DNA of 64,000 bases, from NCBI GenBank assembly GCA_032622095.1, contig CP136069.1, positions 43,624,194-43,688,193 on the forward strand, in the 5' to 3' direction. This document shows positions 3,514 to 61,011 of the stretch, piece after piece; within the stretch, counting starts at the first letter, position 1; every line of letters begins with the position of its first letter. The DNA is from Siphonodentalium dalli (lineage: Eukaryota > Mollusca > Scaphopoda > Gadilida > Siphonodentaliidae). Under the pieces are notes generated by a model that saw only the letters and a list, made by a program, of their open reading frames with translations, was not told where the DNA came from and did no database searches. A program made the position numbers and the translations under genes.

Positions 3514-3566
3514 GGTTTACCAATAGCTAGCACCGCAACGACCATACCATGTTTACCGTCGTGTCC
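3514..3566 (+). repeat. 53-bp direct repeat, left flank of element A1
   Basis: This 53-bp segment, starting GGTTTACCAATAGCTAGCAC and ending CCGTCGTGTCC, recurs at 3,953-4,005 with one visible substitution (AGCTAG versus ATCTAG). The two copies sit immediately on either side of a family A element. Other family A elements are flanked only by TTAA, so this long duplication is unusual. Confidence 0.92.
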
Positions 3567-3950
3567 TTTACCCAACAGAAGGGCCCTGTGCCAATGCATT
3601 CTCTTATATATGCGAGTCGACCATAGGTCGCCTCGCATATATAAGAGAATGCATTGGCTTAACACATTACAAATTATAAAATTGTTAAAGAATGTAAGAA
3701 AAAGTGGTAAAAAGTGTTAAAAAAAGATTTTTTTTTAGGCCAATGCATTCTCTTATATATGCGAGGCGACCTATGGTCGACTCGCATATATAAGAGAATG
3801 CATTGGCACAGGGCTAACTGTAACTATCATAATGTGGTCAAGGAGCCGGTTCCAATGATATCCATATTTGTATGGTTCTATTGAGACAGACCGAAGATAT
3901 TTTAGGCTGTTGAAGCTTTATTTGGCCGGTTTTGGCCGGTTTGTTGGGTA
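3567..3950 (+). mobile_element. Family A palindromic element, copy A1 (atypical ends)
   Basis: It has the standard family A body: left arm TTTACCCAACAGAAGGG, the core CCCTGTGCCAATGC, two palindromes of about 69 bp around an A-rich spacer, then the right arm ending TTGGCCGGTTTGTTGGGTAA. It lacks the complete CCC and GGG termini and the TTAA target duplication seen in other copies. A 53-bp direct repeat flanks it instead. It has no coding capacity. Confidence 0.9.
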
Positions 3951-3952
3951 AT

Positions 3953-4005
3953 GGTTTACCAATATCTAGCACCGCAACGACCATACCATGTTTACCGTCG
4001 TGTCC
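3953..4005 (+). repeat. 53-bp direct repeat, right flank of element A1
   Basis: This is the second copy of the 3,514-3,566 repeat, differing by one visible base. It directly abuts the right end of the A1 element. A repair-associated duplication or a recombination event is more likely than a canonical target-site duplication. Confidence 0.92.
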
Positions 4006-14212: not shown

Positions 14213-14667
14213 TCTTACTGGTATTCAGTGTTCACCACATTTGTTATCTGGCATTCATTATTCACCCATCTGTTAACTGGTATTCGTATCCACCCTCTGT
14301 TAACTGGTATTCGTATCCACCCCTCTGATAACTGGTATCCGTATCCACCTCTGTGAACTGGTATTCATATCCACCCCTCTGTTAACAGGTATTCGCATCC
14401 ACCCCTCTGTTAACTGGTATTCGTATATATCCACCCTCTGTTAACTGGTATTCGTATCCACCATCTGTTAACTGGTATTCGTATATATCCATTATCCACC
14501 CCTCTGTTAACTGGTATTCGTATCCACCCCTCTGTTAACTGGTATTCGTATATATCCACCCTCTGTTAACTGGTATTCGTATCCACCCCTCTGTTAACTG
14601 GTATTCGTATCCACCCCTCTGTTAACTGGTATTCGTATATATCCACCCTCTGTTAACTGGTATTCGG
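14213..14667 (+). repeat. Minisatellite, 26-bp unit
   Basis: This array of about 16-17 units is built on TGTTAACTGGTATTCGTATC plus CACCCC. Some units carry an extra TATA insertion (GTATATATCC), which gives a higher-order pattern of alternating unit types. Unit divergence rises at the left edge. It contains no gene. Confidence 0.95.
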
Positions 14668-15794: not shown

Positions 15795-16186
15795 CCCTTT
15801 ACCCAACAGAAGGGCCCTGTGCCAATGCATTCTCTTATATATGCGAGTCGACCATAGGTCGCCTCGCATATATAAGAGAATGCATTGGCTTAACACATTA
15901 CAAATTATAAAATTGTTAAAGAATGTAAGAAAAAATGGTAAAAAGTGTTAAAAAAAGATTTTTTTTAGGCCAATGCATTCTCTTATATATGCGAGGCGAC
16001 CTATGGTCGACTCGCATATATAAGAGAATGCATTGGCACAGGGCATAACTGTAACTATCACAATGTGGTCAAGGAGCCGGTTCCAATGATATCCATATTT
16101 GTATGGTTCTATTGAGACAGACCCAAGATATTTTAGGCTGTTGAAGCTTTATTTGGCCGGTTTTGGCCGGTTTGTTGGGTAAAGGG
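15795..16186 (+). mobile_element. Family A palindromic element, copy A2 (complete, reference copy)
   Basis: TTAA target duplications at 15,791-15,794 and 16,187-16,190 flank ends CCCTTTACCCAACA and TGTTGGGTAAAGGG. This is the piggyBac signature: a TTAA target and CCC...GGG ends. The structure is a left arm of 20 bp, a core from CCCTGTGCC (15,815) to GGCACAGGG (16,043), then a right arm of about 140 bp ending in TTGGCCGG repeats. The core holds two palindromes, 15,821-15,889 and 15,969-16,037, which are reverse complements of each other. They flank a spacer with TTAAAGAATGTAAG. It is non-autonomous; the apparent open frame through the palindrome is not a gene. Confidence 0.96.
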
Positions 16187-17110: not shown

Positions 17111-17527
17111 GTTAACTTAAATAGTTATATTGTCGTTCAGTATAATTATAGGCCGTCGGCGTAGCTTCCGATACAAAATAAATTCACGTGTATCGTATTT
17201 CCTTGTCAAATGAGTGCTAAAATATCGGACACAATGTGTTGATGTACATGTATACTTTGACGCTTGGCGACAATCAAGCCTTTACAGCTATATACGTGAT
17301 ATGGAAGATTTTTTTTCATTTCTCTCTCGCTATAAATAAAAATAGTGTCTTCTCTTTTCTATTCAAGTATATTAATGTCCAGAGCAAACAATTGTTGAAA
17401 GGGTGCCGGCTCAAAATTTAATTTTGCCAAATGAAAATAGTTTTACTAAATTACTGATTCAGTACAAATAGTCAAAGCCACGCAGACGCGTTAATTTGTT
17501 GAATATTCTCGGTGATTCTTGAATATT

Positions 17528-18300
17528 TTGGGGCCATTCAGCCAAAAAACATTGCCGCAGCAGCCATCTTGGATTTTACTCTTTGTATGACTAAATCCTT
17601 TAGCATGGGCTACAGGTCATACCTTTAGTCTGATCATCATAAAATTTGTCATGGATGTTAACAATGACATGTAGATGGGAACGAGTCATTTTGGGGTCAT
17701 TCGGCCGAAAAACATGGCCGCCAGTGGCCATCTTTGATTTTACTCTTTGTATGACTAAATCCTTTAGCACTGGCTACAGGTCGTACCTTTAGTCTGATCG
17801 TCATAAAAATTTTCATGGCTGTTGAAATTGGAATGTAGATGGGAACTAGTCATTTTGGGGTCATTCGGAAAAAAAACATGGCCGCCAGCGGCCATCTTGG
17901 ATTTCAAAATTCAATCCATTAGCACGGGCTACAGGTCGTACTGTTCATCTGATCATCAAGACATTTGTCGTGGGTGTTAATATTGACTTGTAGATGGGAA
18001 CGAGTAATTTTGGGGTCATTCGGCCGAAATACATGGCCGATGGCAGCAATCTTAGATTTTACTCTTTGTATGACTAAATCCTTTAGCACGGGATACAGGT
18101 CGTACCTTTAGTCTGATCATCATAAAATTTGTCATGGCTGTTGAAATTGACATGTAGATGGGAACGAGTCATTTTGGGGTTATTCGGCATTAAAACATGG
18201 CTGCCAGCGGCCATTTTTGATTCTACTCTTTGCATGACTAAAGCTATCAAATGTTTTTGAATTGTTGGAAAACATAGCCGCCAGCAACCATCTTAGATTT
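17528..18300 (+). repeat. Tandem array, unit about 163 bp, about five copies
   Basis: Units start with TTGGGGTCATTCGG at 17,528, 17,691, 17,855, 18,010 and 18,174, giving periods of 163, 164, 155 and 164 bp. Each carries ACATGGCCGCCAG, GGCCATCTTGGATT, TTTACTCTTTGTATGACTAA and GTAGATGGGAACGAGTCATT. The last unit is partial. A single reverse-complement monomer sits inside the hAT-like element at 57,218-57,747. Confidence 0.95.
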
Positions 18301-18462: not shown

Positions 18463-18927
18463 CCCTGTGCCAACGCATTCTCTTAAGTCGCCTCGCATAT
18501 ATAAGAGAATGCATTGGCCTAACCAATTTTATATTATTTTTTATTATTGTTAATTAATGTAAGAATTTCTTCTTTTTTTTAAATGATAATTTTTTTAAAG
18601 AATGTAAGAAATAATGAAAACAAATAATAAAAATTGTTAAAGAATGTAAGAAAAAATGATAAAATTGTTAAAGAATGTAAGACAAATGATAAAAATATAT
18701 AAAATTGTTAAAGAATATTAGAAAAAATAGTAAAAATTGTTACAGTATGTAAGAAAAAATGATTCAAAAATGATAAAAGAATGTAAGAAAAATGATAAAA
18801 AAAAATGATCAAATTATTAAAGAATGTAAGAAAAAATTATAAAATATGGTCGACTCGCAAATATAAGAGAATGCATTGGCACAAGATCTTTAATGTTAGG
18901 CCAGCGCAGCTCCCATCATGAAAGGTC
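18463..18927 (+). mobile_element. Decayed family B element with expanded spacer (B1)
   Basis: The left side starts directly at the core CCCTGTGCCAACGCATTC (18,463). The right arm reads CAGCGCAGCTCCCATCATGA and ends AAAGG without the final TTAA. Each palindrome has lost much of one arm. The A-rich spacer, normally about 80 bp, is expanded to more than 300 bp by repeated TTAAAGAATGTAAGAAAAA units (about 18,595-18,845). This is a dead copy. Confidence 0.85.
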
Positions 18928-19207: not shown

Positions 19208-19735
19208 AGTGTGAAACATTCAAGACATCATGGGTACCCTAATTAACAATGTGGATATCATGTGTACCTTAATTAACAGTATGTATATCATGGATACCCC
19301 AATTAACAGTATATATATTATGGGTACGCAATTTATATTATGGATATCCTGGGTACCCTAATTAACATTATGTATAGCATGTGTACCCTGACCAACAGTG
19401 TGGATATCATTGGTACCCTGTACCATAATTAACTTTTTTGATATCCTGGGTACCCTAATTAACATTATGTATACCAATTCTACCTAAATCCTGCAACGTT
19501 TTATTTGTGATCCCATGTGTCCTAATAATACGTTTTGGATATGCTGGGTACCCTAATTAACATTATGGATATCCTGGGTACCCTAATTAACATTATGGAT
19601 ATGCTGGGTACCCTAATTAACATTATATATATATCCTGGGTACCCTAATTAACATTATGTATACCCATTCTACCCAAATCCTGCAAGGTTTTATCTGTGA
19701 TCCCATGTGTCCTAGTAATATGTTTGAATATGCCG
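19208..19735 (+). repeat. Minisatellite, about 30-bp unit, with higher-order repeat
   Basis: Units are built on ATCCTGGGTACCCTAATTAA followed by CATTATGGAT. A longer segment (CCTGCAACGTTTTATTTGTG and flanking sequence, about 19,488-19,550) recurs at 19,676-19,735. Part of the array is therefore duplicated as a higher-order block. It is non-coding. Confidence 0.92.
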
Positions 19736-21251: not shown

Positions 21252-21822
21252 CAAAACCTCCTATTAATGGGCTCATGTGTTCAATCTAATTAAACCTCAT
21301 ATTAATGGGCTCATGGGTCCAATCTAATTAAACCTCATATTAATAGGCTTATGTGTCCAATCTAATTAAACCTCATATTAATGGGCTCATGGGTCCAATC
21401 TAATTAAACCTCATATTAATGGGCTCATGGTCCAATCTAATTAAACCTCATATTAATGGGATCATGGGTCCAATCTAATTAAACCTCATATTAATGGGCT
21501 CATGGTCCAATCTAATTAAACCTCATAGTAATGGGCTCATGGTCCAATCTAATTAAACCTCATAGTAATGGGCTCATGGATCCAATCAAATTAAACCTCA
21601 TATTAATGGGCTCATGGGTCCAATCTAATTAAACCTCATATTAATGGGCTCATGTGTCCAATCTAATTAAACCTCATATTAATGGGCTCATGGGTCCAAT
21701 CTAATTAAACCTCATATTAATGGGCTCAATGTGTCCAATCTAATTAAACCTCATATTAATGGGCTCATTGGTCCAATCTAATTAAACATAATATTAATGG
21801 GCTCATGGGTCCAATCTAATTA
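21252..21822 (+). repeat. Minisatellite, 38-bp unit, about 15 copies
   Basis: The unit combines ATTAAACCTCATATTAATGG with GCTCATGGGTCCAATCTA. Copies are very similar, with single-base indels at the GGGTCC/GTGTCC/GGTCC position that mark subtypes. It has no coding potential. Confidence 0.96.
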
Positions 21823-27871: not shown

Positions 27872-27936
27872 CCCATCCATGACTGGAGCTTCCTGATGTT
27901 TTGCGAAAACCCTGAGCCAATGCATTCTCTTATGTA
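27872..27936 (+). mobile_element. Truncated family B element (B2), left arm only
   Basis: TTAA (27,868-27,871) precedes CCCATCCATGACTGGAGCTT, the family B left arm, and the first half of the core palindrome. The element stops at TTCTCTTATG, midway through the palindrome arm. The remainder is deleted. Confidence 0.85.
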
Positions 27937-28689
27937 GTTTGAATCAATCCTTATTTGTACAGCAATGCAATCGATTTAGTTTCTCCCCAATCACCAGCAT
28001 ACACCACATATTCGCAGCAACTGCGAACATTCAACATTGGCGGCATATAAATTATCCAGTTTGAGTCACATATAACACGGAACTGAGTTGAGTATCAGGC
28101 AATTTAATGTTCCAAATACCAAACATATAACAAAATAGTTTAGTACTCTCTCATATTACACAACGTGAGCAGTCAACGTGTCAATTTTTAGGTTCTGTAA
28201 CTCTGTCGGAATCTCTATGAAAGACTCAAACTCCAGGCAGAGTTATCTCCCATCGCTCTGCTGAGATACCACTGCCATACGGACATTTGGGAAGGATTTC
28301 TTACGTGTTCTTAGTTCTTATGTTTTAGGATTAAAATTGTCTATATCTGGCTCAGTTCATATTGGTCTTATCCACACTGATCCACACCGAAATAATTAAC
28401 ATTTTGGTGGTCAAAATAAGAGAATAGATGACTAAATATAGTTCCGACGATATGTAAAAATAGATGTATCGGTCCGCAAAGTAACATCCTTGTGGCAGTG
28501 CTATATCGCAGTGATAACGTAGAGGGCGCTGCGTGGAGTTTGTGAAAGTCTGACAATCCACAAAATAGGGCATATAGCAAACATTATGCAATTCGATTAT
28601 ATCATCTGCAGGGATGTGGCGCGACATGGGGTTGTGGTTTCGTCCACCCTACATAGTTTAGCGCAGGCAGCCCCTGTGAGATAGCTATG
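27937..28689. other. Non-coding, no gene seen
   Basis: No splice-bounded coding segment or transposon end was recognised. Confidence 0.4.
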
Positions 28690-30140: not shown

Positions 30141-30493
30141 CCCTTTACCCAACAGAAGGGCCCTGTGCCAATGCATTCTCTTATATATGCGAGTCGACCA
30201 TAGGTCGCCTCGCATATATAAGAGAATGCATTGGCTTAACACATTAAAAATTATAAAATTGTTAAAGAATGTAAGAAAAAATGGTAAAAAGTGTTAAAAA
30301 AAAGATTTTTTTTAGGCCAATGCATTCTCTTATATATGCATTGGCACAGGGCTAACTGTAACTATCACAATGTGATCAAGGAGCCGGTTCCAATGATATC
30401 CATATTTGTATGGTTCTATTGAGACAGACCGAAGATATTTTAGGCTGTTGAAGCTTTATTTGGCCGGTTTTGGCCGGTTTGTTGGGTAAAGGG
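30141..30493 (+). mobile_element. Family A palindromic element, copy A3 (second palindrome collapsed)
   Basis: TTAA duplications lie at 30,137-30,140 and 30,494-30,497, with full CCCTTTACCCAACA and TGTTGGGTAAAGGG ends. The first palindrome is intact. The second has lost its centre and reads TTATATATGCATTGGCACAG. That is the deletion expected when a hairpin is skipped during replication. The paralogous site at 29,354 shows the empty target. Confidence 0.95.
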
Positions 30494-31659: not shown

Positions 31660-32522
31660 GTAAACAGTTCAAATAACCTGGGATTTGTTTAAAGTTGTGA
31701 CATGGATCGTTATAACATTGAAAGCATAACGCATGCAATATATTTCTTAGTTAATATCTGTTCGTTTGTAAAGTATTTCACATTAGTTGAGGGGTACAAG
31801 TTAGTGATTATATTATTTAGGCGACTTTTGTGAGTCGAATTCGTGATAAACATGAATTGTATACCTGGGCAATTTTATAAGCGCTATATCGACGAATTTG
31901 TTCGGAAATCTTCCGCGTAGAGGTATGTTTTGAGATAACTTCTCATCAAATTACATGTATTTATCCATAAGTGTGGGGTCCGAACGAGCCAATTCCGTTT
32001 AACCCTTTACCCAACAGAAGGGCCCTGTGCCAATGCATTCTCTTATATATGCGAGTCGACCATAGGTCGCCTCGCATATATAAGAGAATGCATTGGCTTA
32101 ACACATTAAAAATTATAAAATTGTTAAAGAATGTAAGAAAAAATGGTAAAAAGATTTTTGTTTAGGCCAATGCATTCTCTTATATATGCGAGGCGACCTA
32201 TGGTCGACTCGCATATATAAGAGAATGCATTGGCACAGGACATAACTGTAACGATCACAATGTGGTCAATGAGCCGGTTCCAATGATATCCATATTTGTA
32301 TGGTTTTATTGAGACAGACCCAAGATAATTTAGGCTGTTGTAGCTTTATTTGGCCGTTTTGGCCGGTTTGTTGGGTAAAGGGTTAACTTGGAAATATATT
32401 ACCTGTATTATTCTTTCAATTTTATAAAGTTCAACGTCAGAAGATCACAAAGTTGCCAGGTTTGAACTGGTGAAATAGTAATCTTAATAGGCGAAGCCAG
32501 AGTAGAGATTCGTGGCATGATC
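31660..32522. mobile_element. Family M element M2, interrupted by A4
   Basis: The interior matches M1 (AATATATTTCTTAGTTAATA, CTGGGCAATTTTATAAGCG). The right arm ends GAGATTCGTGGCATGATC before a TA, as in M1. The left arm is diverged and its exact start is uncertain. The complete A4 element interrupts it, so M2 inserted first. Confidence 0.7.
32003..32382 (+). mobile_element. Family A palindromic element, copy A4
   Basis: TTAA lies at 31,999-32,002 and 32,383-32,386, with complete CCC and GGG ends. Both palindromes are intact. The spacer is shortened after AATGGTAAAAAG, and one GCCGG unit is lost from the right arm. It is inserted inside family M element M2. Confidence 0.95.
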
Positions 32523-36894: not shown

Positions 36895-37272
36895 CCCTTT
36901 ACCCAACAAACCGGCCAAAACCGGCCAAATAAAGCTTCAACAGCCTAAAATATCTTCGGTCTGTCTCAATAGAACCATACAAATATGGATATCATTGGAA
37001 CCGGCTCATTGACCACATTGTGATGGTTACAGTTATGCCCTGTGCCAATGCATTCTCTTATATATGCGAGTCGACCATAGGTCGCCTCGCATATATAAGA
37101 GAATGCATTGGCCTAAACAAAATATTTACCATTTTTTCTTACATTCTTTAACAATTTTATAATTTTTAATGGGTTAAGCCAATGCATTCTCTTATATATG
37201 CGAGGCGACCTATGGTCGACTCGCATATATAAGAGAATGCATTGGCACAGGGCCGTTCTGTTGGGTAAAGGG
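36895..37272 (-). mobile_element. Family A palindromic element, copy A5
   Basis: TTAA lies at 36,891-36,894 and 37,273-37,276. It is inverted relative to A1-A4: the long GGCCAA-rich arm comes first, and the element ends GGGCCGTTCTGTTGGGTAAA. Both palindromes are intact and the spacer is short. Confidence 0.95.
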
Positions 37273-38788: not shown

Positions 38789-39045
38789 CCCGTCCATGAC
38801 TGGAGCTTCCTGAAATTTTGCGAAAACCCTGTGTCAATGCATTATCTTATATATGCGAGTCGTTCATAAAGCGTCTCGTATATATAAGAGAAGCATTGGC
38901 CTAACAATACTTATATACCTTCACCTTGTAAGCCAGTGCATTATCTTATATATGCGATGCTCCCTATGGGAGACTCGCATATATGAGAGAATGCACTGAC
39001 ACATGTTTTTAATGCTGCACCAGCGCAGCTCCAGTCATGAAAGCG
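38789..39045 (+). mobile_element. Family B palindromic element, copy B3
   Basis: TTAA flanks (38,785-38,788; 39,046-39,049) bound CCCGTCCATGACTGGAGCTT and the complementary GCAGCTCCAGTCATGAAAGC. The core starts CCCTGTGTCAATGC and holds two decayed palindromes whose loops differ (TCGTTCATAAAGCG and TCCCTATGGGAGA). A TTAA target and CCC...G ends fit the piggyBac type. Confidence 0.92.
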
Positions 39046-39490: not shown

Positions 39491-42400
39491 TGTAGACAGT
39501 TATGGATGATAATGACCGTTATCGCGAAGCAGACTGCACACGAGTAGATACAATTGCAACACGATGACATTTAAACGTTGGAAGTAATTGCTAAAAATCG
39601 AAGTCAGTAGTACTGGGTGATCGATCCATGCATTGTGTGGGAACCACTCCCACGGCAGGGTCCTAGAATGCCGTATTCAAAGTACGCATAAGCGGTTGGT
39701 ATAGTACCATAGTAAACTCCGTGGCTGAAGTCTTTCGTGGAATGCAGCGAAAAAGGAAACTGCATAATACCACGAACTAAACTGGTCCATAGCTTACACG
39801 GAGCCAAATCCGCAATGGTTTTATAGGTATCTACCAGGTAAAACATCATGTAGATTTAGCAACAAATCACACCTGGCATGACAGCCGGTTTGACAGTAAA
39901 AAGTCATAATGAAATGCTGGCTGACGGCTCGAAAGCTTTTTGGTATGTCAAATTAGGATAAGCTGAAAGAAAAATGACCTGAATCACATTTTATCACAAA
40001 GTGAAGTTGGTAAAAAATGTATGGATGACAAGAGAAAGAAGAGGGAATCTGCAAAGCATAAGAAAATAGGGGGGGGGTAATGGAAGAGTGACCCAATTTT
40101 GTGCAGATACCTGATTCCTCGTTCACTTGTCATACCTTTGGAAAAGAATTTCGAACGTACTCAACAAAATATCTCAATTAATAAAACCCAAAAGTTTAAA
40201 TTTATAATTTATAAACGAAATCACCAGAGAAGGAAAAGAGACAACAAAGCCAATAAGATCTTCATCAGTTGCAAGTTGCTAACCCGGACTTACTAAACGT
40301 ATGAACACCAACTTGCGACCTTTACTTTATACGGAGCCAAATCCACAATGGACTCACAAAACCACGCCTATCGGGATTGGAACAGGGCTTTACAGACTGA
40401 GCCACCGCGGTTCCATCTTAGTCTGGTACATTACGTAGGGTCCACACACAATGATCCGATATCGTGCTTCTTCGTCGTTATTTTGCTATTGCAAATATTT
40501 CAATTACTCATCGGCGGTGATACAATCATGATGCACTCGTCTAATTTGTCGCTTTATAATCAAAGCAGAGTGCGTCTGTTATCAGAATAACACGCATATT
40601 GCAGATCTAGCATCGTTTCTCTCGCAGCGATAATAAATGTGAAACATTTTAGGTAGCAATACACAATTTCCAGCAATTTGGGAGGGAGTACTGTACTTCA
40701 AATGGATGCTGTTCCATTATTTGTGGAGCTCCATCAAGCATGTTTATAATTTCGACAGAAATGGTATGCGTAAACAAATAGAACTAGAACATGAAACCAG
40801 ATGTACTTCCATGGTATCGTCATACAATGGATATACTGTGTGTATATGCTAGTTCATCATCATGTAAAGACAATCTGGTTCTTCTTGATCTGCTTTTAGA
40901 CCTGAGTTGCCATTTTTACCTAAAATATATTGCTTGGCCAAAAGCCTCCGCCCACCCTCGACGCGTCCTCTCCGTTAGGCGTGGTGCCTTTGTGGTATCC
41001 GGTTCAAACTTTCTTCGCGTACTTAACGTATACCTAGGTATCGGCTCCTACATTAGCCTCGCTCCTACATTTATTTAACTATAGCAGCTGGTCGTCCTTA
41101 TATTGTTTTCGCTTTCGAACATGGGCGCCGCCATCTTGAATTAGGGGCGCCGCCATTTTGAATTTGAGGGGCCGCCATCATGACCTTGAAACGTCATTGC
41201 AATTAAATTAAAACTACAAAATGTTACTTTTCATATACCCAACATAACATTATTCATTGCGTTAAGGCATTACATGGTTTATTCTTTGAACAATAATCAT
41301 GACTTAAATCATAAATATTGTCGACCGGACTCGGGTTGCTATTCCATTCGGGAAATGTCGGAAATTTAGTAAAACTGCAAATTTTCCTTAGCCACCTCGT
41401 GAAAACAACATAATTCATATCGTAAATATCTGGAATGTTTATCATATAACTATAAACTTTACTTTAGTAAATTAATAGAAGCATGTTCACGTAAACTGTT
41501 AGGTTACGTCATATGCTGTATCCAAAGCGACGTCATATTGGCACGCGCATTTTCCCGCGAAAGTTATTGACGTTTTGACAGCGACGTGCATGACATAGCA
41601 CACAAAGCAGGCATAATGTTGGCATGGTTCGCATTAGGTTTTGTTGGGTTGACGATGTGTCATAGTGCATGGCTCTGAGTCCGCGCTGGTATAAATGTAG
41701 CTCCATGCAATTGTAATCAAACTGATCCCAACCAATAAAATCACTATAGAATTTGTACAGGTACAAACAAAACATGTTCTTGGAAATTGAATGTTCTTCC
41801 TTACTTATATTCTAATGATTTGGGTTGTGATTTGAAACAAACTAACAACCCAAATTATGAGGGGGTAAACCCAAGTTCTCACTCGTAATAACCCCAATTT
41901 CCAACCAAGGCCAAGGGTTGTGGAGGGGAGTACAACTTATATTTCATCCAAATTGAGAATGGGCATATGTGCCAGTCAAAAAATTGCTCCGGGGAGCCAC
42001 GATCGAAAGGCTGGAAGATACACGTATGAGTACAATATGATAATTATGAGGTACAGACTCAATCCCCCTACCACAAGCAACCAACTTCGTGTACGTAATT
42101 GGTTATAAGAAATATTTATAGTTAATTAAATCTTGACATTCATATAAGTCAACACATATTAGTCTGAGTAGTGCAGGTCGTGACTGCACGGTCGTCCTTT
42201 TTTGCATGGATTTCAATGCCATAATTTCTTAATATTTGGCTTGGGAAAAAGCTAACTCCTCCGTTTGATGCATTGAGGCGGCGCCACGGACAATATATTT
42301 TAAATGGGGAATTCCGGTTACATTCACTCTTAGCCATAGGAAGAGGTACGAACAAATATTTGTTGCTGAAACAGGGCTGATTAGCCTGTGTTGTGTCGGG

Positions 42401-44955: not shown

Positions 44956-45197
44956 CCCTTCCATGACTGGAGCTTCCTGAAATTTTGCGGAAACCCTGTG
45001 CCAATGCATTCGATTATATATGCGAGTCTCATACAAGGAGCCACGCATACATTTTTAAGACAATATATTAGCCTAACAATATTAACATTGACTTTGTAAA
45101 CCAGCGCATATATATATGCGAGTATCGATATATAAGAGAATGCCCTGGCACATTATCTTTAATGCTGCACCAGCGTACAGCTCCCGTCATAAAAGTG
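44956..45197 (+). mobile_element. Family B palindromic element, copy B4
   Basis: TTAA lies at 44,952-44,955 and 45,198-45,201. The left end is CCCTTCCATGACTGGAGCTT, and the right end is CTCCCGTCATAAAAGTG. The palindromes are heavily eroded (CGATTATATATGCGAGTCTC; TTAAGACAATATATTAG), which suggests an old copy. Confidence 0.88.
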
Positions 45198-46357: not shown

Positions 46358-46747
46358 CCCTTTACCCAACAAACCGGCCAAAACCGGCCAAATAAAGCTT
46401 CAACAGCCTAAAATATCTTCGGTCTGTCTCAATAGAACCATACAAATATGGGTATCATTGGAACCGGCTCCTTGACCACATTGTGATAGTTACAGTTATG
46501 CCCTGTGCCAATGCATTATCTTATATATGCGAGTCGACCATAGGTCGCCTCGCATATATAAGAGAATGCATTGGCCTAAAAAAAATCTTTTTAACACTTT
46601 TTACCATTTTTTCTTACATTCTTTAACAATTTTATAATTTGTAATGTGTTAAGCCAATGCATTCTCTTATATATGCGAGGCGACCTATGGTCGACTCGCA
46701 TATATAAGAGAATGCATTGGCACAGGGCCGTTCTGTTGGGTAAAGGG
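46358..46747 (-). mobile_element. Family A palindromic element, copy A6
   Basis: TTAA lies at 46,354-46,357 and 46,748-46,751. It is in the inverted orientation with complete ends. Both palindromes are intact apart from one change (CATTATCTTATATATGC). It lies only about 25 bp right of element C3. Confidence 0.95.
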
Positions 46748-47710: not shown

Positions 47711-47965
47711 CCCTTTCATGACAGGAGCTCCGCTGGTGCAGGTTTAAAGATTCTGAGCCAGTGCATTCTCTTATATATGCGAGTCTCCCACAGGGAGCAA
47801 CGCATATATAAGAAAATGCACTGGCTTACAAGGTCAATGAAAATATTGTTAGGCCAATGTATTCTCTTATATATGCGAGGCTCCATATGGGAGACTCGCA
47901 TATATGAGAGAATGCATTGGATCAGGGTTTTCGCAAAATTTAAGGAAGCTCCAGTCATGTGATGG
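47711..47965 (-). mobile_element. Family B palindromic element, copy B5
   Basis: It is inverted. The left end is CCCTTTCATGACAGGAGCTC, preceded by ATAA (a decayed TTAA). The right end is GAAGCTCCAGTCATGTGATG, followed by TTAA (47,966-47,969). The palindromes have loops TCCCACAGGGAG and TCCATATGGGAG. It lies in the putative intron 126 bp downstream of the exon. Confidence 0.9.
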
Positions 47966-49620: not shown

Positions 49621-49797
49621 GCGCGTTACCATATCTGACATTGGTTTTCTTGTTTTATTTTGTTTGGGAAAATCGTGTTTGGGACCATGAATCATACATA
49701 ATTATTCACCAGACAGGACTGTGTTATAAACCGGCTGGTTTATTTCGTATAGTGGATCAACGCTTAGATCACCGGCGGCCTTCTTAACCCTTTACCC

Positions 49798-50179
49798 AAC
49801 AAACCGGCCAAAACCGGCCAAATAAAGCTTCAACAGCCTAAAATATCTTCGGTCTGTCTCAATAGAACCATACAAATATGGGTATCATTGGAACCGGCTC
49901 ATTGACCACATTGTGATGGTTACAGTTATACCCTGTGCCAATGCATTCTCTTATATATGCGAGTCGACCATAGGTCGCCTCGCATATATAATAGAATGCA
50001 TTGGCCTAAAAAAAATCTTTTTTTAACACTTTTTACCATTTTTTCTTACATTCTTTAACAATTTTATAATTTTTAATGTGTTAAGCCAATGCATTCTCTT
50101 ATATATGCGAGGCGACCTATGGTCGACTCGCATATATAAGAGAATGCATTGGCACAGGGCCCTTCTGTTGGGTAAAGGG
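49798..50179 (-). mobile_element. Family A palindromic element, copy A7
   Basis: TTAA lies at 49,794-49,797 and 50,180-50,183. It is in the inverted orientation with both palindromes present (one base change, ATATATAATAGAATGC). It ends GGGCCCTTCTGTTGGGTAAA as in the reference left arm. Confidence 0.95.
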
Positions 50180-53978: not shown

Positions 53979-54231
53979 CGTTTTCATGACTGGAGCTTCC
54001 TGAAATTTTGCGAAAACCCTGTGCCAGTGCATTCTCTTATATATGCGAGTCGCCCATGGGGCGCCTCGCATATATAAGAGAATGCATTGGCCCAACAATA
54101 TTTACCTTGATCCTGTAAATAGTGCATTCTCTTATATATGCGAGGCTCCCTATGGGAGACTCGCATATATAAGAGAATGCACTGGTACATGTTTTTAGTG
54201 CTGCACCAGCGTCGCTCCCGTCATGATAGGG
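53979..54231 (+). mobile_element. Family B palindromic element, copy B6
   Basis: TTAA lies at 53,975-53,978 and 54,232-54,235. The left end CGTTTTCATGACTGGAGCTT has lost its CCC. The right end is GCTCCCGTCATGATAGGG. The two palindromes have loops TCGCCCATGGGGCG and CTCCCTATGGGAGA. It sits at the same place in its array unit as B7. Confidence 0.93.
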
Positions 54232-55471: not shown

Positions 55472-55727
55472 CCCTTTCATGACTTGGAGCTTCCTGAAAT
55501 TTTTCGAAAACCCTGTGCCAATGCATTCTCTTATATATGCGAGTCGCCCATGGGGCGCCTCGCATATATAAGAGAATGCATTTGCCTAACAATATTTACC
55601 TTGATCCTGTAAGCCAGTGCATTCTCTTATATTTGCGAGGCTCCATATGAAAGACTCGCATATATAAGAGAATGCACTGGTACATGGTTTTTAATGCTAC
55701 ACCAGCGCAGCTCCCGTCACGAAAGGG
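55472..55727 (+). mobile_element. Family B palindromic element, copy B7
   Basis: It is flanked by TTAT (55,468-55,471, a decayed TTAA) and TTAA (55,728-55,731). The ends are CCCTTTCATGACTTGGAGCT and CGCAGCTCCCGTCACGAAAG plus GG. Both flanks are homologous to those of B6 (CTGAATACACCTTTA; AAGACMCCTGAAAAGAC), so it was copied by the tandem duplication and did not insert independently. Confidence 0.93.
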
Positions 55728-57964: not shown

Positions 57965-58346
57965 CCCTTTACCCAACAAACCGGCCAAAACCGGCCAAAT
58001 AAAGCTTCAACAGCCTAAAATATCTTCGGTCTGTCTCAATAGAACCATACAAATATGGATATCATTGGAACCGGCTCCACATTGTGATAGTTACAGTTAT
58101 GCCCTGTGCCAATGCATTCTCTTATATATGCGAGTCGACCATAGGTCGCCTCGCATATATAAGAGAATGCATTGGCCTAAACAAAATTTTTAACACTTTT
58201 TACCATTTTTTCTTACATTCTTTAACAATTTTATAATTTTTAATGTCTTAAGCCAATGCATTCTCTTATATATGCGAGGCGACCTATGGTCGACTCGCAT
58301 ATATAAGAGAATGCATTGGCACATGGCCCTTCTGTTGGGTAAAGGG
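57965..58346 (-). mobile_element. Family A palindromic element, copy A8
   Basis: TTAA lies at 57,961-57,964 and 58,347-58,350. It is in the inverted orientation with complete ends. Twelve or so bases are missing after ACCGGCTCC, compared with other copies. Both palindromes are intact. Its right edge abuts the GIY-YIG-like relic, so a chance open frame reads from the relic into the palindrome. Confidence 0.95.
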
Positions 58347-60601: not shown

Positions 60602-60756
60602 TATAATCTGGTCCTAGTTTTCTATGATCGCCAAGTCCGAGATTGCCTATACCAAATAAGAAATAAGATAGGATATGCTGATGCTAGGGAGGTCTGAAGG
60701 AACAAACGTGTGGCGCTGTATATAAGAACGTTCAGCGATGGCGGAGCACGGATTAA

Positions 60757-61011
60757 CCTTTCATGTCGTGAGCTGCACTGGTGTAGCACTAAAGATCCTG
60801 TGCCAGTGCATTCTCTTATGTATGCGAGTCTCCAATAAGGAGCCTAGCATATTATAAGAGAATACACTGGCTTACAAGATCATGGTAAATATTGTTGGGC
60901 CAATGTATTCTCTCATGTATGCGAGGTTCCATGTGGGATACTCACATATATAAGAGAATGTATTGGCACAGGGTTTTCGCAAAATTTCAGGAAGCTCCAG
61001 TCATGGAAGGG
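60757..61011 (-). mobile_element. Family B palindromic element, copy B8
   Basis: TTAA (60,753-60,756) precedes CCTTTCATGTCGTGAGCTGC. The right end is GAAGCTCCAGTCATGGAAGG plus G, with the right TTAA decayed to TCAT. It is inverted like B5. The palindromes are moderately eroded (CTTATGTATGCGAG; CTCATGTATGCGAG). Confidence 0.9.

Follow-up and report, generated by a model that had tools for sequence, protein, structure and literature searches.

Four sets of non-autonomous, MITE-like ends, called families A, B, C and D here, enclose one internal module in the genome of Siphonodentalium dalli; the homology of the module, its common edge and the two target-site classes are shown. The reading that joins the observations is that of four MITE-like families, among which a palindrome module has been transferred and in which amplification followed each capture, and it is given a probability of roughly 0.6. 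It is supported by the core in four arm sets, the TTAA sites of A and C, the flanks of D, the arm and spacer statistics, the substitution tests and the piggyBac matches of the genome; it is weakened by a C spacer that resembles those of A and long-B at the level of chance and by 24 piggyBac loci without matching end pairs.

The window, i.e., the whole stretch of 64,000 nucleotides analysed, holds copies of A, B and D (Table 1). Members of family A are ~390 bp long and consist of CCCTTTACCCAACA, a short arm, the core, a long arm and the inverted end, with TTAA targets and CCC...GGG termini; direct reading of the element at 15795-16186 gives exactly TTAA plus CCCTTTACCCAACA at the left and TGTTGGGTAAAGGG plus TTAA at the right. 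All eight places at which an earlier note on this DNA had put family A do hold a copy, with TTAA at both ends in seven of the eight, the exception being that at 3564. Two-sided TTAA was found in 30 of 32 full A copies from the window, the samples and the fetched loci, 22 of which had been chosen by one-sided TTAA; among the remaining 10, it was present in nine. The set of 32 comprises 10 copies from the window and samples and 22 from 29 loci fetched by end matches, the other seven loci being dropped as their second end was absent within the piece. Family B is older and more ragged than A, with about eight copies or fragments in the window. Eight B places had been claimed, of which six are full elements; half of one lies at 27.9 kb, and at 18.5 kb a single B arm can be recognised. 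Exact two-sided TTAA occurs in 3/6 full window B copies, and B pairs found by a loose pattern and having no palindrome were excluded from the B count. Together with the 30/32 in A, this bears out the claim of TTAA targets for A and B; the CCC start and GGG end of the TIR are present in A, B and C, often with one changed base in B copies.

Table 1. Positions of the elements and core parts in the window.
Feature	Positions	Strand
Family A reference element, short arm-core-long arm, TTAA-flanked	15795..16186	+
Core of reference copy, CCCTGTGCC-P1-spacer-P2-GGCACAGGG	15815..16043	+
Palindrome P1, 69 nt, near-perfect inverted repeat of itself	15821..15889	+
Palindrome P2, reverse complement of P1	15969..16037	-
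Family A copy, flanks CGTG and TTAC	3564..3955	+
Family A copy, second palindrome 39 nt shorter	30141..30493	+
Family A copy	32003..32382	+
Family A copy	36895..37272	-
Family A copy	46358..46747	-
Family A copy	49788..50179	-
Family A copy	57965..58346	-
Long-B element, decayed core, spacer expanded by ~31-bp repeats, B arm recognisable only at right	18463..18926	+
B element, left part: arm and first-palindrome start	27872..27945	+
Family B copy	38789..39045	+
Family B copy	44956..45197	+
Family B copy	47711..47965	-
Family B copy	53979..54231	+
Family B copy	55472..55727	+
Family B copy	60756..61011	-
Family D copy with left arm GTGACCCGCCATATC and full core, right arm missing past TAAAAA	61825..62243	+

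The core had been described as containing two palindromes of ~69 bp in reverse order, and each does measure 69 nt, one being the other's reverse complement, which also makes the core an inverted repeat of 80 nt that is 99 per cent complementary and encloses 71 nt. The spacer between the palindromes is AT-rich with roughly 31-bp periodic repeats. Folded as single-stranded DNA, the core reaches -102.4 kcal/mol vs. -20.1 (sd 2.9) for shuffles. The palindrome half within 15821-15889 contains GCCAAT and TTATATAT, which we take to resemble CCAAT and TATA boxes, and from these motifs a role as a bidirectional promoter is conceivable. A Pfam search of six of the 13 listed open frames of the window returned no family.

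The assembly consists of 2,226,750,531 bases in nine contigs, and the TTAGGG telomere repeat stands at one of the four contig ends read. The exact 69-mer is found in 87,657 genome copies (43,895 forward and 43,762 reverse), and TTAACCC followed after 10 to 40 bases by CCCTGTGCCAATGC matches 34,088 times forward and 33,720 times in reverse, vs. 0 for the control; both are counts of exact patterns, to which altered copies are additional. The window has 15 exact 69-mers vs. ~2.5 per 64 kb at the genome average, i.e., about six times as many, while ten 10-kb samples, taken at hand-chosen places with one beside the window, contain four exact 69-mers in three of the samples and core-like palindromes in five. 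The core end CCCTGTGCCAATGC has 29 window matches at two or fewer mismatches vs. 0.32 expected from shuffles, at least one of which, at 40374, is not a core. A repeat with CCATTGGCACAGGAATTAACCC, a core-end look-alike adjoining TTAACCC, occurs without the palindrome at positions 1669 and 3022 of locus L003, the copies being 1,353 bases apart. A viral source of the core was also considered, but the 16-mer matches in four viral contigs share one surrounding stretch, have no palindrome and were taken as chance.

Family C, a third arm set starting with TTAACCCTTTGAGTGCC, was recognised among the matches listed, which cover the first 6.6 Mb of contig C1. Two-sided TTAA is present in 11 of the 12 full C copies read, 10 of which had been chosen by one-sided TTAA, and in both of the other two. 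The C interior consists of one palindrome, part of the spacer and then other DNA up to the far end; ten copies have one intact-looking palindrome, two have one decayed palindrome and none has two. In building this sample, 5/11 loci of one fetch were dropped for an absent second end, and the C-like element of locus L001 stands outside the alignment. Among the matches listed, ten C-type ends on one strand follow each other at 11.17 kb (one step of 11.41 kb) in C1:819972-920836, so that a large unit with the element in it is repeated there in tandem; the spacing is regular too among the matches listed in C1:742213-785829 (14.5-14.6 kb) and C1:94237018-94292223 (7.86-8.02 kb). The window itself has minisatellites, for instance, a 38-bp tandem repeat of fifteen copies with 94 per cent matches at 21254-21822 and others at 14217-14666, 17525-18242 and 19223-19733.

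Family D is the fourth arm set, with the start GTGACCCGCC and arms GTGACCCGCCATATCAAATCCAGTCGTAAGTCGGGATTTTTTTTA at both sides of the core, and its inner arm with the core start has 4,286 exact genome matches. Its flanks are identical 4-bp A/T-rich target duplications in 14 of 19 full copies (ATAT in eight, ATTT and AAAT in two each, AATT and ATGT in one each), or in 12 of 16 without one of each of three locus pairs that look duplicated by eye (L145/L148, L146/L147 and L151/L152), and they are TTAA in 0/19. Six of 20 newly fetched D loci lacked a full pair of ends, and the interrupted D copy of L043 was excluded. The window copy at 61.8 kb, missing from the earlier note's list, belongs to D. 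With C and D, the core is thus known with other arms than those of A and B, the opposite of one outcome that the note had named as fatal to its reading, and since A, B and C are TTAA families and D is not, the module crosses target-site classes. Loci L043 (C1:19466700-19468800) and L044 (C1:32373770-32377390) were chosen for their widely separated ends, and in the D stretches of both, other DNA starts past CTCTTA inside a palindrome, perhaps another transposon targeting TTA. Diverged palindromes are also present in yet another setting at locus L009, where three of them lie 1.0 to 1.4 kb apart.

The claim of unrelated arms around the same core in A and B holds, as the likeness of their arms is no better than that of shuffles; the other outcome named as fatal, gradual divergence of A and B from one ancestor, is not what the arms show. 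None of the local arm alignments between families, a test that left out the short A arm, beats dinucleotide shuffles, each score being reached by at least 34 of 200, and the positive controls, the B1-B2 and C1-C2 arm pairs, were reached by 0/200. Homology does join the spacers of A, long-B and D (z 8.2-12.6), those of C and D give z 4.7, and the C spacer is indistinguishable from chance against that of A or long-B, with each family represented by one copy in this test. The long-B element of the window has no strong spacer score on the strand used in the test; reversed, it scores 201, 78 and 64 against the L055 long-B, A and D, respectively (scores without shuffles). Given arms that are unrelated and spacers that are homologous, the common part is the core as a whole. 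An identical 69-mer is present in the A, C and D consensus cores, the arms within a family are at most a few per cent apart, and no intermediates joining the arm sets were noticed among the copies read.

The outer edge of the core falls on the same base, CCCTGTGCC, at both sides in A, B and D and at one side in C, and the earlier remark about CCC/GGG ends belonging to the core itself is correct as a description of the junctions. This common sharp edge suggests that the core was once a discrete element. In the joint reading, the outer ends of A-D would set how and where each family moves, and the module would be the two opposite 69-bp palindromes (one in C) around the AT-rich spacer. The movers would probably be piggyBac-type transposases for A, B and C and a different one for D. 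The module may have passed between families in the past, either by the insertion of a small, since extinct element that had CCCTGTGCC at its ends or by copying during gap repair, and each capture would have been followed by amplification because the intact palindrome pair helps its carrier to multiply, probably via the hairpin that the pair forms. Inspection by eye showed no direct repeat around the core in A or B elements, so that the route of transfer has left no direct sign.

Two accounts of that history deserve weight, and the first, with odds somewhat short of even, is that a transposon extinct today brought the core into one MITE by a single insertion, after which later families swapped their outer ends by nested insertion or recombination. 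The common edge in all families, a homology that runs through the spacer, and the more diverged cores of the B and L009 copies agree with this account, but neither an autonomous parent nor a duplication was found. According to the second, which is tentative though possible, abortive gap repair or template switching copied the core between MITEs, with the palindromes or T-runs as switch points. The C copies, in which one palindrome and a partial spacer give way to other DNA, and the broken D copies, which lose an arm within a T-run, would be expected from such copying; however, random switching leaves the identical outer base in A, B, C and D unexplained.

A third account, in which the core is a still-moving transposon with the ends CCCTGTGCC/GGCACAGGG that inserts into MITEs and elsewhere, has little chance of being right. 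The earlier idea of a mobile module in two sets of ends stands insofar as one core lies in more than two unrelated arm sets (A-D), but not as regards self-mobility today. The same outer base in four families is what a transposon end should give, and the D arms end in TA at both sides; the latter, however, follows from the symmetry of D. Against it, no solo core was found in 164 kb (the window and the ten 10-kb samples), where the outer edges were of the A, B, C, D or L009 type save one window D with a replaced right arm, in a scan limited to the palindrome halves found by the search, whose class D count, inflated by inner A junctions, was not used. Odd junctions listed by the unusual base or bases before the core number 1,045, 3,153 and 252 places, of which 20, 7 and 13 were read; 36 of these 40 copies are A, B, C or D elements with changed edge bases, and four (L083, L087, L127 and L133) have no recognisable full arm. 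Of the four, L083 and L087, at first candidates for solo cores, proved to be broken D copies on further reading. Nor was a target duplication seen around the core in A or B, and the core-free A, C and D places located by exact anchors, which miss diverged empty copies, number two, zero (in a search without a positive control) and one, all three being deletion scars with core remnants. The absence of solo cores in the DNA scanned, the known arms of the odd copies and the lack of a flanking repeat therefore give no support to a core moving by itself at present, and the still-moving reading is largely refuted. Quite improbable too is one ancestral family whose arms drifted gradually while the core stayed, for although A, B and C have in common the CCCTT start and the use of TTAA, their arms are like shuffles while A, C and D cores hold the identical 69-mer, arms are a few per cent apart within families and unrelated between them, and D is of another target-site class.

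The joint reading, in which the intact palindrome pair would favour its carrier, leads to the substitutions in the 32 A copies. Private substitutions are as frequent in the palindromes (22/3996) as in the arms (31/4750; P 0.58), so mutation after insertion has been equal in both. All substitutions together amount to 28/3996 in the palindromes vs. 110/4750 in the arms (P 4e-10), and columns with a variant common to at least two copies to 3/130 vs. 17/152 (P 0.004), where the bases matched in the search were left out of the counts for the 22 fetched copies and the P values overstate the evidence because columns are linked within few sub-families. The palindrome variation missing among the multiplied A lineages points to constraint during amplification, and the statistics indicate a palindrome that is conserved between amplified sub-lineages and unprotected after insertion. 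The depletion of shared variants could also stem from a recent common origin of the cores instead of function. Hairpin correction of the palindromes after insertion had been raised because 15 A copies showed far cleaner palindromes than arms, and it was rejected on the equal private substitutions in 32 copies. Five of the 32 A copies have lost 19-41 nt inside the palindromes, as unstable hairpins may be expected to show.

Pairing within the palindrome was followed in 27 chosen palindromes, 22 of which are from B, where 90.6 per cent of cells pair. Cells changed at both sides number 31 vs. 12.3 (sd 2.6) in shuffles and 13 or fewer in slid versions. Neither the both-side-changed pairs (8 vs. 6.0, reached by 71/500 shuffles) nor the pair types (24 vs. 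21.8, reached by 56/500) of these 27 palindromes are significant, and the paired changes are confined to three or four positions and mostly inherited. At least 90 per cent of the 27 palindromes retain a mismatch of position 28 with 42, and this retained mismatch speaks for one origin of the palindromes.

The genome has 128 piggyBac-domain matches, many in open frames, with some elements matched in two pieces. The earlier description of the ends as piggyBac-like suits A, B and C by their TTAA and CCC/GGG, but not D, and no full pair of A, B or C ends lies at any of the 24 piggyBac loci read with 1.3-1.5 kb at each side, B being searched for by one of its two arms. The core is absent from all 24, and 4/24 (L015, L019, L020 and L028) have a single weak C- or A-like end match at two mismatches. 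In L015 and L020, the match is TTAACACGTTGAGTGCC, a real-looking end that recalls C but is not identical to it. These two piggyBac loci, which lie in open frames, have asymmetric ends, one TTAACACGTTGAGTGCCGG and the other TTAACGGGGCGTAATACG.

How non-coding MITEs multiply to tens of thousands is still an open problem. Their internal sequence has been suggested before as a cause, among others for the coral CMITEs, but is hard to isolate. A single genome in which one interior occurs with at least four unrelated end sets, of two target-site classes, is a natural experiment in which the effect of the interior can be told apart from that of the ends. A bolder proposal, which is unlikely as it stands, is that the double palindrome acts in cis as a portable amplification cassette, the capture of which would bring any small DNA transposon, irrespective of transposase class, to very high copy number; the hairpins would perhaps create a single-stranded or stalled-replication state that turns cut-and-paste into copying. 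For annotation, it matters that similarity-based repeat annotation can merge unrelated transposon families via a shared cassette.

MITEs of the piggyBac type have TTAA targets and CCC...GGG ends, and A, B and C are like them in both respects, whereas D does not use TTAA and the interior here is common to several families. The nearest precedent, likened by description, is the CMITEs of Acropora, for which the available text describes TTAA-flanked MITE families with differing CC[C/T]T TIRs and one conserved interior, as in A-D, in elements of about 100 bp whose 75-base interior is more conserved than the TIRs (Wang et al., 2010, PMC2872659). According to the same part of the paper, A. millepora has an estimated ~1,600 copies, tandem arrays occur, the coral genome contains piggyBac-like transposons and the interior is suggested to aid transposition (PMC2872659). 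The interior here is a double palindrome, whereas the word "palindrom" is absent from PMC2872659; TTAA alone is described in the available text of that paper, whereas D is a non-TTAA family, and the ~1,600 copies estimated there stand against 87,657 for one exact 69-mer. Modularity is also seen in the pearl MITEs of bivalves, as far as their description was available, with an internal part of satellite-like tandem repeats and, in one of them, a conserved palindrome near the repeat junction; unlike here, that portion of the paper describes no sharing across two target-site classes (PMC5139131). In Aedes aegypti, the available account of the ATon elements is of abundant TIR elements that are non-autonomous and in some cases have subterminal stem-loops, no autonomous partner having been found; they differ from the families here in their insertion at AT dinucleotides and in the dissimilar interiors of ATon-I and ATon-II (PMC3422177). 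In the open-licence literature, no report of a palindromic module common to several target-site classes was found. The families of S. dalli are set apart from these precedents by their double palindrome, their scale, a family outside TTAA and the test of private vs. shared substitutions, and they are a real and very abundant modular MITE-like set, whose double palindrome is shared and apparently constrained.
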